The notes under the pieces: generated by a model
The model's input: the letters and a program-made list of their open reading frames with translations, nothing else
Told to the model about the DNA's origin: nothing
Database searches by the model: none
Part shown: positions 6,908 to 12,494 of the stretch, piece by piece
Numbering within the stretch: position 1 is the stretch's first letter
Layout of the letters: every line of letters begins with the position of its first letter
Assembly: GCA_026003195.1 (NCBI GenBank)
Contig: BPGU01000004.1
Coordinates: 506,317-570,316 of the forward strand
Origin: Armatimonadota bacterium
Lineage (GTDB): Bacteria > Armatimonadota > HRBIN16
Reading direction: 5' to 3'
DNA: 64,000 nucleotides
Program-made: the position numbers and the translations under genes

Positions 6908-7498
6908 GTGTCCACTCGTGAAGAGAGTCATCTGATACGCGCCGCCCAGCAGGGTGATAGCCGCGCGTTTGACCGTCTGATCCATCGTTATCAGGCGCAG
7001 GTCTATCGCGCCATGACCCGTGCGTGCGCCAACCCGGATATGGCGGCGGATGTGCTGCAGGAGGCGATGATTCGCGCCTTCCGTGCCCTGCCGCAGTTTC
7101 GAGGGGACTCCTCGTTTGCGACGTGGCTCTTTCGCATCGCCCGCAACCTGTGCGTGCGTAGACAGCAGCAGATGATGGCGCACCCCACCATCTCGCTGGA
7201 CCAGCCACTGGGCGAGGAGGAAGATGCCGAAAACCTGCTGCGCCAGATGATAGACCCCACCGCCCAAAACCCGCAACAGGTAGTGCTGGACGAGGAGATA
7301 CGCCAGAAGGTGCGCGAGGCGGTAGATAAGCTGCCCCCTCATCTGCGGGAGGTGCTGGTGCTGCGCGATATGGAAGACCTGTCTAACCAGGAGACGGCGG
7401 AACGCACGGGGTTGACCGTCGCTGCGGTGAAGGCACGTTTGCACCGCGCCCGTGCCCTGCTGCGCGAACACCTGGAGGAGTACTTCTCGGAGTCTTAG
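6908..7498 (+). CDS. RNA polymerase sigma factor, ECF type
   Basis: 196 aa with the two ECF domains. Sigma region 2 is at about residues 20-90 (FDRLIHRYQAQVYRAMTRA, DVLQEAMIRAFRALPQF, SSFATWLFRIARNLC). Region 4 is at about 138-190 (LPPHLREVLVLRDMEDLS, AAVKARLHRARALLREHL). The start is GTG at 6908 after GGTGGGAGAGG. A GGAACC at 6864-6869 could be an ECF-type -35 element for self-regulation, but I cannot define the -10. No anti-sigma gene follows: the next DNA is the Rhs remnant region on the other strand, so how it is controlled is not visible. Confidence 0.92.
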   Translation: MSTREESHLIRAAQQGDSRAFDRLIHRYQAQVYRAMTRACANPDMAADVLQEAMIRAFRALPQFRGDSSFATWLFRIARNLCVRRQQQMMAHPTISLDQPLGEEEDAENLLRQMIDPTAQNPQQVVLDEEIRQKVREAVDKLPPHLREVLVLRDMEDLSNQETAERTGLTVAAVKARLHRARALLREHLEEYFSES

Positions 7499-7584: not shown

Positions 7585-7770
7585 TTAAGGAGCCAGCTTA
7601 TGTCCGATGGGATGCTCCGAAAGCACCGCATCCCGGCTGATAAACCGCCCTGCCTGCGGGTCGTAGTAGCGTGCCCCGACGTGCAGTAAGCCTGCATCGC
7701 CATCGTCACGATAACCCCATGCCCCAGCGAAGCGATAGGGGTTGGCACTGTTGCCCCGTCAGCTACCGTA
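7585..7770 (-). pseudogene. Rhs repeat-associated core, remnant 3 (frameshifted)
   Basis: Read on the minus strand, this encodes GNSANPYRFAGAWGYRDD, then GDAGLLHVGARYYDPQ and AGRFISRDAVLSEHP, ending at TAA (7587-7585). This is the conserved end of the Rhs/YD-repeat core just before the variable tip. Compared with the copy at 9.6 kb, one base is missing just upstream of GNSAN, which throws the preceding codons out of frame. No start codon or full core is present and no recognisable tip remains. Confidence 0.7.
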
Positions 7771-7808: not shown

Positions 7809-8051
7809 CTACCTAAGGTGTCTCCTAATCCAACACCAGTACATAATGGTTGGTATCCCAAGCACTATTGCCATACCGACTGGCTCCTTGAAGAATGGGT
7901 TGTGGTAGGATGGGTTAACCCTGCTGTAGATGAAGTTTGCGACGATAAGACTAACCATCCCTCCCACCCATATTCCTACGTCTCGCCAAAATCCATGGGT
8001 TTTGCCGTTCTTGCTTTGCATCTCCGCTACCTTTCCCACCTTCGAAAGCAA
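7809..8051 (-). CDS. Small two-TM membrane protein, candidate immunity partner of Rhs tip 2
   Basis: 80 aa from the TTG at 8051, or 70 aa from the ATG at 8021, which has AAGGTAGCGGAG upstream. Two hydrophobic segments (about residues 27-45 and 56-75) flank a short polar loop. It starts 2 nt after the stop of the Rhs tip 2 frame, the spacing expected for a toxin/immunity pair. I recognise no family. Calling it an immunity protein is an inference from position and membrane character; it might equally be an unrelated small membrane protein. Confidence 0.5.
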   Translation of the reverse strand: MLSKVGKVAEMQSKNGKTHGFWRDVGIWVGGMVSLIVANFIYSRVNPSYHNPFFKEPVGMAIVLGIPTIMYWCWIRRHLR

Positions 8052-8616: not shown

Positions 8617-9087
8617 CTATATCAGAACAAATAGCAGACCAAGCAAGATACACCCGACTCCCCACCACCGTGTCCATCGTCCAGCAAATAGTGCCTGGTA
8701 GAACCGACGCTGGTAACTTCTGATGCGGTGTCTTGTCTTATACCACACATATATCGAGCCAACAGACCCCATCAGACATATCACGCCCTGCACCGGAGCG
8801 GAGATCCTTCCACTAAAAACAGCCCCCACGAAGAGCCAAGGCAATAACACAGACAGTAGAAACCCCGTGTCAAGCATTACATCCGAGCCGAAGAAACGTT
8901 CGTAACTCTCCTGATGCAGTTGTAGAGTTGGTTGTGCCAAACGGCTTCGCTCCCCTCTGAGAACCATCTCTACGCCTGCTAAGATAAATAGTATACCAAT
9001 TACCCACATCCCTCGTATCTCCCTTAGGCGCGGACATCTTGCTCGCGCCCCACGTATAAGGTAAAGGGTAGCACTCAGAAAACCCAT
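8617..9087 (-). CDS. Membrane protein, candidate immunity partner of Rhs tip 1
   Basis: 156 aa with four likely membrane segments: about residues 26-42 (MWVIGILFILAGVEMVL), 75-92 (TGFLLSVLLPWLFVGAVF), 98-114 and 138-156 (WWGVGCILLGLLFVLI). The ATG at 9087 overlaps the stop of Rhs tip 1 by 13 bp, so the two are likely translationally coupled. No family recognised. The immunity role is inferred from coupling and location only. Confidence 0.6.
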   Translation of the reverse strand: MGFLSATLYLIRGARARCPRLREIRGMWVIGILFILAGVEMVLRGERSRLAQPTLQLHQESYERFFGSDVMLDTGFLLSVLLPWLFVGAVFSGRISAPVQGVICLMGSVGSIYVWYKTRHRIRSYQRRFYQALFAGRWTRWWGVGCILLGLLFVLI

Positions 9088-9716
9088 CCAATGGAACCGC
9101 TCAGACCCGGCGTGCCGATGCCGCCTTCCCTAAACCATCCCCCTCTAGGCGACCAGCCGACTTGTCCTCCCGGTCCAATTGGCAGGAACGGTGTAGGCAT
9201 GTATCCTCCACCCCCTATATACGGCCCTGGTGTGATATAATCCCATGAGCTGTTGAAACTTCCAGTAATTGGCGGGCCAATACCTATGCCGCCACCTACA
9301 TAGAAATGCCATCCGAATGGCTTGCCCGGGCCGGTGTTTCCGAACTGGAGTCCAATACCAATTTGGAAGATACCTATGTTGATAGATAGATTGATGTCAA
9401 CATAAACTCGCCCACTCGGATCCACCGCGTTGACCGGGTCATCTTCGCAATACAGATACCGGTTCAACGACAGCGGACGGTAGATGTTGCCCAGCCACTT
9501 GTCCGCGCTCGTCCACCGACCGACAGCAGGATCATACCACCGCGCCCCGATAGACAGCAAGCCTGCATCGCCGCCATCGCGGTAGCCCCATGCGCCCGCA
9601 AAGCGGTAGGGGTTGGCACTGTTGCCCCACTGAGCCACCGGGGTGCCAAACGCCTCGGTTGTCAACGTGCTGGTTACCGCTTGACTACCGTCCACCGTTG
9701 CGCGGGTCGTGCCCAA
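9075..9716 (-). CDS. Orphan Rhs core end with variable tip 1
   Basis: 213 codons from a TTG at 9716. Rhs homology extends further upstream in the same frame, to about 9734 (YLADGLGTTRATVDG). The core end shows NPYRFAGAWGYRDGGDAG, LLSIGARWYDPAVGRWTSAD and LNRYLYCEDDPVNAVDPSG. The tip after DPSG (about 115 aa) is glycine-rich (GIGLQFGNTGPG, FYVGGGIGIGPPITG, GPYIGGGGYMPT) and does not resemble a nuclease. The large Rhs shell and any secretion signal are absent. It is probably an orphan or displaced tip, expressed if at all by read-through from argJ. Confidence 0.7.
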   Translation of the reverse strand: MGTTRATVDGSQAVTSTLTTEAFGTPVAQWGNSANPYRFAGAWGYRDGGDAGLLSIGARWYDPAVGRWTSADKWLGNIYRPLSLNRYLYCEDDPVNAVDPSGRVYVDINLSINIGIFQIGIGLQFGNTGPGKPFGWHFYVGGGIGIGPPITGSFNSSWDYITPGPYIGGGGYMPTPFLPIGPGGQVGWSPRGGWFREGGIGTPGLSGSIGWVF

Positions 9717-9724
9717 GCCGTCCG

Positions 9725-10924
9725 CTAGGTACTGTACTCCGCGTTGATGCGCACGTAGTCGTAACTGAAGTCACAGGTCCATACAGTGGCGTGTTCTGTG
9801 CCCTCCTGCAGATCGATGGCGATGGTCACCGTATCCGCTTTCAACCGTTCGTGCAGGTCATGGGCGTCGAAGGTGGTTGGCTTGCCGTCGGCGTACACCA
9901 GCGTTCCCTGCAGGGCGATTTGCGCCCTGTCGGGATCAAAGTCCACCCCGCTGCGCCCCATCGCCGCCAGAATGCGCCCCCAGTTGGGGTCGTTGCCGAA
10001 GAGGGCGGTCTTCACTAGTGGCGACTCCGCCACCGTCTTCGCCATCTGGCGCGCCTGCGTGAAGGTAGGCGCACCGCGCACCTCGATCTCCACCAGCTTG
10101 GTAGCCCCCTCGCCGTCCCGCGCGATGCGCTGAGCCAGGCGAATGCACAGTTGCTCTAAAGCCAGCTGGAAATCGTCCAGATAGCGATGTACCTCCACAC
10201 CCGACTGCCCGTTTGCCAGAATCACCACCATGTCGTTGGTACTCGTGTCGGAGTCGATGGTCAGGCAGTGGAAAGAGCGTTCCACAGCGTCCTTCAGCAC
10301 CTGCTGCAGGACGGGCGCGGAAATCTGCGCGTCGGTGGTGAGGAAACAGAGCATGGTGGCCATATTGGGGGCAATCATGCCTGCGCCCTTGGCGATACCG
10401 CCGATTCGCACTTCGCCCTCGGGGAACCTCAGGCAAACGGCTTCCTGCTTGGGCACTGTGTCGGTGGTCATGATGGCTTCGGCGGCGGCACCTCCGCCCT
10501 CTGGAGAGAGCTCCAGCATCGCCTGCTCGATGCCCGCCTCTATCTTCTCCAGCGGCAGCCGATGCCCGATGATGCCCGTGCTGGCGGTCACCACCTGCGC
10601 GGGAGGGCATTCCAGCAGCTGCGCCACTTTCTGCGCTATGCGCACATTGTCCATGAAGCCCTCTTCACCGGTAGCGGCGTTGGCGTTACCGCTATTGGCG
10701 ACGATGGCGCGGGCCACACCCGATTCCACCACATGGCGCGAGTAGCGCACACAAGGCGCAGCGGCGCGGTTGGTGGTGAACATGCCGGCGACCGTCGCCG
10801 GTGTATCCGAAACGATGAGCGCGAGGTCCTTCCCTCTGGACTTGACGCCACAACGCACACCTGCCGCCCGAAAACCGCGCGGCGCGGTCACAGAACCGGT
10901 TGTCCACTCTGTCGGATATGCCAT
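9725..10924 (-). CDS. argJ: Glutamate N-acetyltransferase / amino-acid N-acetyltransferase
   Basis: Bifunctional enzyme of arginine biosynthesis: it moves the acetyl group from N-acetylornithine to glutamate and can also use acetyl-CoA. 399 aa, normal length. The precursor cleaves itself before the nucleophile threonine T190 in KGAGMIAPNMATM. Other family marks are VANSGNANAATGE (residues 75-87), TASTGIIGHRLP and NDPNWGRILAAMGRSG. It starts 4 nt after the transaldolase gene. The stop (TAG, 9727-9725) lies in bases that are also in frame with the adjoining Rhs remnant, so the gene's last codons may be supplied by that DNA. Confidence 0.95.
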   Translation of the reverse strand: MAYPTEWTTGSVTAPRGFRAAGVRCGVKSRGKDLALIVSDTPATVAGMFTTNRAAAPCVRYSRHVVESGVARAIVANSGNANAATGEEGFMDNVRIAQKVAQLLECPPAQVVTASTGIIGHRLPLEKIEAGIEQAMLELSPEGGGAAAEAIMTTDTVPKQEAVCLRFPEGEVRIGGIAKGAGMIAPNMATMLCFLTTDAQISAPVLQQVLKDAVERSFHCLTIDSDTSTNDMVVILANGQSGVEVHRYLDDFQLALEQLCIRLAQRIARDGEGATKLVEIEVRGAPTFTQARQMAKTVAESPLVKTALFGNDPNWGRILAAMGRSGVDFDPDRAQIALQGTLVYADGKPTTFDAHDLHERLKADTVTIAIDLQEGTEHATVWTCDFSYDYVRINAEYST

Positions 10925-10928
10925 TGCC

Positions 10929-11585
10929 TCAGAAAATGCTTGCCCCGGACTTCTGCCAGTCCGCCAGGAACCGCTGGATGCCGATGTCCGTCAGCGGGTG
11001 TTGATAGAGCCGCTCCAGCACCTTGAACGGTACGGTGCAGGCGTGTGCCCCCGCCCGCAGCGCTTCCACCACATGCATCGGGTGACGTACGCTGGCAACC
11101 AGCACCTGGCTCTGAAAACCGTATTCCTTGATCATATTCACCGTGTCGCGCACGGCATTCATGCCTTCCCCGCTGATGTCGTCCACGCGTCCGACGAAAT
11201 TGCTGATGTAATACGCTCCTGCCTTTGCTGCCAGAAACGCTTGCGAGAGGCTGAACACCAGCGTGACGTTACAGCGAATGCCCTCTCGCGAGAGTGCCCT
11301 CACCGCCTTCATGCCCTCTTGGGTCATCGGGATTTTGACCACGATGTTGGGATGCCAGCTGGCGACCTCACGCGCCTCGCGGATCATCCCCTCCGCATCG
11401 AGGCTAACGACCTCTGCGCTGATGTCGCCCGGGTTGACGATCTCGCAGATTTCGCGCACGATGTCTTTGAACGGGCGTCCCTCCTTTGCTACCAGCGAGG
11501 GGTTGGTGGTCACGCCCTCAATCGCGCCCCAGCTCCAGGCGGTTCGGATCTCCTCGATGTTGGCGGTATCCAGAAACAGCTTCAT
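10929..11585 (-). CDS. fsa: Transaldolase-like fructose-6-phosphate aldolase
   Basis: Small (218 aa) class I aldolase of the TalC/FSA/MipB type, using a Schiff-base lysine to cleave or transfer dihydroxyacetone units. The lysine is K84 in NIVVKIPM. The N terminus [13 protein letters not shown] and [11 protein letters not shown] are characteristic, as are [12 protein letters not shown] and [11 protein letters not shown]. Whether it works as a transaldolase or an aldolase cannot be told from sequence alone. A strong ribosome site (AAAGGAGGG) precedes the ATG. It lies between dapB and argJ in a same-strand run. Confidence 0.93.
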
Positions 11586-11681: not shown

Positions 11682-12494
11682 CTACAGCAGATGCTCCAGT
11701 CCCACCACCAGACCCTGCACCTGTTGCGCCTTACGGATGGCAAGCATGACGCCGGGCATAAAGGATTGCCGGTCCATCGAGTCGTGCCGAATGGTCAGCA
11801 ATTCACCCTGTCCGCCGAAAATCACCATCTGGTGCGCTACCAGACCGGGCAAACGAACACTGTGCACGGGCACACTGGCAACGCTCGCGCCGCGTGCTCC
11901 TTCGAACTTCTGTTCCTGCACAATCTGTCGGGGTCGCTCGGTGCGTGCCGCGGCAATCACTTCGGCGGTGCGTATCGCCGTCCCTGAGGGAGAGTCTATC
12001 TTGCCGTCGTGGTGCATTTCGATAATCTCCACGTTGGGGAAATAACGTGCAGCCTCTCTGGCGAACTGCATCATCAGCACCGCACCGATGGCGAAGTTGG
12101 GCACGATGATACAGGCGGTGCCCGTGCGCTCTACCGCCTCGCGAATGTCGGAAAGGGTTTGAGCCGAAAAGCCGCTGGTTCCCACGACGGGAATAACGCC
12201 ATGCTCCAGCGCCGTATAAATATGGCTTACCGCTGCACCCAGGGTGGTGAAATCCACCAGCACATGCGGCCGGGTTTGCGTGAGCGATTCGCCCAGATAG
12301 TCAGTCACGGTGATGCCGATGGGATGCTCTACAGCGATGGTGCCGATATCTTCGCCGACGTGTTGCTTGTCTACCGCGCCCACCAGCACCATGTCGGGCT
12401 GTTTCAGCACGGTCTGCACCACCAGCTTGCCCATGCGACCGCACGCTCCTGCCACAGCCACACGGATTCTGTCTTCTGTTTCAGTCTGAATCAT
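11682..12494 (-). CDS. dapB: 4-hydroxy-tetrahydrodipicolinate reductase
   Basis: Reduces 4-hydroxy-tetrahydrodipicolinate with NAD(P)H in the lysine/diaminopimelate pathway. 270 aa, typical length. The nucleotide-binding loop is VAVAGACGRMGK (residues 12-23) and the catalytic region is EMHHDGKIDSPSGTA, with H161, H162 and K165. The C terminus MLAIRKAQQVQGLVVGLEHLL is also typical. Its start overlaps the end of the M16 protease gene by 14 bp, so the two are co-transcribed. Confidence 0.95.
   Translation of the reverse strand: MIQTETEDRIRVAVAGACGRMGKLVVQTVLKQPDMVLVGAVDKQHVGEDIGTIAVEHPIGITVTDYLGESLTQTRPHVLVDFTTLGAAVSHIYTALEHGVIPVVGTSGFSAQTLSDIREAVERTGTACIIVPNFAIGAVLMMQFAREAARYFPNVEIIEMHHDGKIDSPSGTAIRTAEVIAAARTERPRQIVQEQKFEGARGASVASVPVHSVRLPGLVAHQMVIFGGQGELLTIRHDSMDRQSFMPGVMLAIRKAQQVQGLVVGLEHLL

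Follow-up and report, generated by a model that had tools for sequence, protein, structure and literature searches.

In the window, the whole stretch of 64,000 nucleotides of an Armatimonadota genome analysed here, the arginine biosynthesis gene argJ is followed directly by a "headless" orphan Rhs array, in which a truncated core, a variable tip and an immunity-like open reading frame (ORF) are repeated in one direction. The junction between argJ and the array is genuine and tight, and argJ itself is normal, with an intact end and a stop codon at the usual position. The order on the minus strand is dapB, a transaldolase-like gene, argJ and the Rhs array, after which comes a convergent ECF sigma gene on the plus strand. 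The features are listed below; G000 denotes the genome of the window, and G001 to G009 the other members of the genus used for comparison.

11682-12494, minus strand: dapB (name read from the translation)
10929-11585, minus strand: transaldolase-like gene (name read from the translation)
9725-10924, minus strand: argJ (ArgJ family, 399 aa; PF01960), with the canonical C terminus ...YDYVRINAEYST
9725-9728, minus strand: junction C-T-A-G, from the blastn start at 9728 and the base table
9714-9716, minus strand: TTG, the first start codon that the Rhs frame could use, 8 nt past the argJ stop, with no evident Shine-Dalgarno sequence
9411-9728, minus strand: cassette 1, Rhs core truncated at its 5' end to the last ~106 codons (LADGLGTTRA...VDPSG); TIGR03696
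9075-9410, minus strand: cassette 1, variable C-terminal tip of ~110 residues, putative toxin domain; 98% identical tip in G005
8617-9087, minus strand: cassette 1, putative immunity gene, 156 aa, seemingly membrane-associated; also adjoins this tip in G005 C2
8318-8491, minus strand: cassette 2, truncated Rhs core with one in-frame TAG; TIGR03696, 53.8 bits
8054-8374, minus strand: cassette 2, ORF of 106 aa with the core end and a variable tip; partial TIGR03696 match below the cut-off
7809-8051, minus strand: cassette 2, putative immunity gene, 80 aa; weak DUF1129 match below the cut-off
7609-7770, minus strand: cassette 3, last of the array on the side away from argJ, a broken piece of Rhs core; TIGR03696, 40 bits, one internal TGA
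6908-7498, plus strand: ECF sigma factor gene, convergent to the array; Pfam sigma-70 domains

The junction between argJ and the Rhs array

The argJ product matches PF01960 with 515.8 bits over residues 19-399, as a full-length member of the ArgJ family with the usual C terminus; among named sequences, those closest to it in an argJ search come from Armatimonadota MAGs (52-56% identity). The 3' end of the gene reads GAG TAC AGT ACC TAG (protein end ...INAEYST), the TAG occupying positions 9727-9725 of the minus strand, and the stop falls at residue 399 in 97 of 106 ArgJ relatives from many phyla. The first-pass annotation had argJ reading into Rhs DNA, a proposal contradicted by the full length, canonical end and ordinary stop position of the gene; extension or truncation of its C terminus by Rhs is ruled out on the same grounds. 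A second, partial argJ-like match (G000:C20:8284-9150; 42% identity, residues 8-286) may sit on a contaminating contig, the contamination of the assembly being estimated at 4.82%.

Rhs-coding DNA lies directly 3' of the argJ TAG, in the same direction and in another frame that runs across the stop codon (..TAC CTA GCG GAC GGC TTG GGC..). The blastn comparisons of the cassette with two Rhs copies from other loci (G005:C2 and G000:C3) both start exactly at 9728, the final base of the last argJ sense codon, in agreement with a base-by-base table of ten further Rhs copies from the genus, all of this subfamily, which the window follows from C 9728 on. Where the window has TAC, immediately before this C, the codon is GTG or ATG in nine of the ten copies; Rhs genes of the subfamily read ...RNGEVV-LADGLGTTRA, with V where the Rhs frame of the window has Y, and the residues VQY ahead of LADGLG are argJ DNA translated out of frame. 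On the argJ side, seven genes of the genus match the window through the T of the stop, except at third codon positions and for a Ser/His difference in the last codon but one; two of these genes (G002 and G007) match it also at the A and G of the stop, and none of the seven matches it any further. The junction bases C, T and G are common to argJ and Rhs, and the A is present in argJ of G002 and G007 and in none of the ten Rhs copies. Since T and G fit both sources, about four bases (9728-9725) are not assignable to one rather than the other, and since the argJ match ends and the Rhs match starts there, homology switches within these bases.

Several earlier proposals can be adjusted in the light of these comparisons. 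The Rhs frame, placed before at about 9734 and over both the last argJ codons and the TAG, is homologous to other Rhs copies from 9728 only; the out-of-frame passage across the TAG stands, the overlap with the last codons does not, and the true overlap of argJ and Rhs amounts to ~4 bases. The direct fusion of the Rhs module to the 3' end of argJ, in the same direction and with no terminator-like site in between, was confirmed. Relatives without Rhs DNA, which would have told against the fusion had they shared both the argJ end and the bases after it, share the former and differ in the latter, homology breaking at the stop codon. Overall, the first-pass observation is partly confirmed and its interpretation partly supported. 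The junction in G005, an independent genome of the same genus, is identical base for base, ruling out an assembly artefact as its source.

Cassettes, genus comparison and exchange between arrays

The core of cassette 1 matches TIGR03696 (Rhs_assc_core) with 64.6 bits at 9411-9656 (62.3 bits in a second search), above the curated cut-off of 32.5 bits. Cassette 1 is not a full-length Rhs gene: it begins ~106 codons before the tip and lacks the N-terminal YD-repeat part. Its architecture is that of orphan Rhs-CT/immunity modules, with a truncated core, a variable tip after the conserved DPSG motif and a small ORF immediately behind the tip, and with several such units forming an array; the ATG of the 156-aa putative immunity ORF overlaps the 3' end of the tip ORF. 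Pfam and NCBIfam searches with the tips and immunity ORFs gave nothing above cut-off (DUF1129 was sub-threshold only), and the comparison of cassette 1 with plasmids gave no match; the toxin and immunity roles of the tips and small ORFs are putative, assigned from position and architecture.

Rhs core matches occur at 51 places in G000, in several arrays. A full-length gene of this core subfamily is present in G002 (1022 codons, 11 YD-repeat stretches) and in G007; the searches of G000 gave no such gene, and the full-length Rhs genes of G000 that come closest to the G002 and G007 heads have only about one third of their residues in common with them. Three other arrays of G000 (L112, L113 and L114, on C2, C2 and C1) are headed by Rhs genes of 1317-1349 codons, each preceded by a near-identical ORF of ~363-383 codons ('MRALLVSTVLLVCAG...') that may be a partner gene to the head. 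Rhs genes with equal scores and spacing on two contigs (G000:C1:2826-7319 and G000:C9:17519-22012) reflect either a duplication or an assembly overlap. The arrays L070 (G000:C3:892000-911000) and L071 (G005:C2:984000-1002000) have both flanks in common: the head of L071 is a full-length Rhs gene of ~1080 codons; in L070 flank homology reaches only the first ~27 head codons and truncated cassettes follow, as if the head had been deleted.

The tip and immunity ORF of cassette 1 recur in G005 (C2:994.4-995.2 kb) with 98% and 97% protein identity, respectively; they are still adjacent there, in an array headed by a full-length Rhs gene, and the DNA of the two copies is near-identical from the core end through to the next core. 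The argJ-linked cassette of G005 matches that of G000 to the core end at ~9407 and then continues into a different tip. In these two sister species, therefore, one 5' fragment occurs with different tips and one tip behind different 5' fragments, a reshuffling predicted by recombination in the Rhs core. Exchange with borders at the core, observed here between cassette 1 of G000 and G005, is characteristic of orphan CT/immunity modules, in which the exchanged stretch runs between one boundary motif and the next (Poole 2011, PMC3150448). Taken together, these comparisons indicate that recombination inside the Rhs core carries cassettes of tip and immunity gene from one array to another.

The ECF sigma gene is the conserved right-hand neighbour in five genus members (G000 and, by synteny, G002, G003, G005 and G007). 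The interval between argJ and this gene contains Rhs cassettes in G000, G005 and G003, and a 272-codon reverse-strand nucleotidyltransferase-like ORF without Rhs DNA in G002 and G007. In G003, argJ ends in TGA and homology to the array starts ~50 bp past the stop, inside a cassette, a junction different from that of G000 and G005. Other genes follow argJ in G001, G004 and G008; the argJ contigs of G006 and G009 end too early to add to the neighbourhood comparison. An array thus occupies the argJ-to-sigma interval in at least three species, and its left junction is of two kinds. In the tree of the argJ region, G000 and G005 are sisters with moderate support, so their identical junction is most simply explained by one event; the branching order of the pairs is not fixed by this tree, and either gain of the array in G000/G005 or its loss in G002/G007 may hold. 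A HEAT-repeat-like ORF of ~200 aa occupies the position of an immunity gene directly after argJ in G003 (L068, G003:C104, 300-960), and the same ORF is found further down the G005 array (L069, G005:C5).

The stop codon and the possible expression of the array

The TAG is more likely argJ's own, the Rhs DNA having been attached at this codon or directly behind it by way of a few shared bases: its A is present in the Rhs-free G002 and G007 but in none of the ten Rhs copies. The first-pass annotation suggested that argJ may take its stop codon from Rhs DNA; that the argJ stop was lost in the fusion and the present TAG comes from Rhs DNA (CTA GCG, in the other frame) is a reading which we consider improbable. 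The T and G of the TAG, and the C before it, do match the Rhs copies, and argJ ends in TGA rather than TAG in five genus members (G001, G003, G004, G006 and G008); moreover, the base in question is a wobble base in the Rhs frame, so that a stop spelled by Rhs could have arisen, but only by mutation after the join or from an unseen donor with CTA, which would read CTAGCGGACGGC. However, the stop sits at the ancestral residue, and the TAG-ending argJ genes of the genus (G000, G005, G002 and G007) include two with ACC TAG and no Rhs DNA at the site (G002 and G007).

There are no promoter-like or terminator-like sites on the coding strand between argJ and the cassette, making transcriptional read-through from argJ into the array possible; the internal promoter and terminator counts are at or near chance (3 versus 1.4 and 2 versus 1.7 in shuffles). 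The tip ORF of cassette 1 is open throughout in G000 (213 aa from TTG 9716), which could mean that it is still in use. Translational coupling, in which ribosomes terminating at the TAG would re-initiate at this TTG and produce a 213-aa core-tip protein, would agree with the open frame, with the absence of a terminator-like site and with the close spacing of the same-strand genes upstream. Nevertheless, it is very unlikely: the TTG has no evident Shine-Dalgarno sequence; in G005, with the same junction and the same TTG, a 1-bp insertion and an in-frame TAG break the frame and the tip is a different one, indicating that argJ-coupled toxin translation is not conserved; and the tip of G000 is present in G005 away from argJ. 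Equally doubtful is the capture of the array by an arginine biosynthesis operon, by which the output of immunity protein, and perhaps of toxin through re-initiation at the TTG, would be tied to argJ transcription. The tip ORF is probably little translated, as a good start is missing, and the immunity genes, which have their own ATG, may be expressed from any passing transcript, argJ read-through included. Similarly, an orphan CdiA tip without initiation signals is transcribed in E. coli, where evidently only the immunity protein is made, and orphan CT/immunity modules in general, mostly devoid of initiation signals, are transcribed and have functional immunity proteins (Poole et al., PMC3150448). 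In Salmonella, experiments showed an orphan Rhs tip to be expressed, with an internal promoter and with CTG as its start codon (PMC7043789), and silence of such tips should consequently not be assumed. Pure debris, that is, dead remnants of decayed Rhs genes without any role, is a less improbable reading of the array than coupling, and still an unlikely one: in-frame stops interrupt the argJ-linked core of G005 and two cores of the present array (cassettes 2 and 3), and G000 yielded no full-length gene of the subfamily, but the tip and immunity ORFs of cassette 1 are intact and 97-98% identical to those in the other array of the sister species.

An orphan array joined to argJ and its precedents

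The explanation that we favour, and regard as highly probable as a whole, is that the argJ-sigma interval is a site holding an orphan Rhs array of one-directional repeats, joined to an intact argJ in an ancestor shared by G000 and G005. The join would have come about by recombination or deletion, which brought a position inside an Rhs core up to the stop region of argJ through a match of 3-4 bases and damaged neither the gene nor its stop. The cassettes would serve mainly as a store for shuffling, the pairs of tip and immunity gene travelling as units by means of the flanking Rhs cores.

Orphan Rhs arrays are already known (Poole 2011, PMC3150448; Jackson 2009, PMC2935791); what is unusual here is the tightness of the junction. 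As in the orphan cdiA-CT/cdiI and rhs-CT/rhsI modules of Poole 2011 (PMC3150448), the array consists of toxin-tip fragments with poor initiation signals and an immunity-like gene behind each, lies in one direction and exchanges cassettes with other arrays at a conserved motif before the tip. Unlike those modules, it is headless, starts at the stop codon of a housekeeping gene and belongs to a host that is not an enterobacterium. The displaced core-tip fragments in line, generated by core recombination, resemble the Rhs C-terminal displacement described by Jackson 2009 (PMC2935791); compared with that account, the present locus lacks the gene's 5' part and has a junction to argJ. The Salmonella orphan rhs toxin (PMC7043789) is likewise a tip without delivery part which internal initiation could express; its internal promoters and CTG start were demonstrated by experiment.

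The locus offers a base-level view of an orphan toxin array joined to a housekeeping gene without damage to the gene and, in an apparently little-studied bacterial phylum, a clear example of the transfer of tip and immunity cassettes from array to array. Its chief use is a corrected annotation: a normal argJ, followed by an orphan Rhs array.
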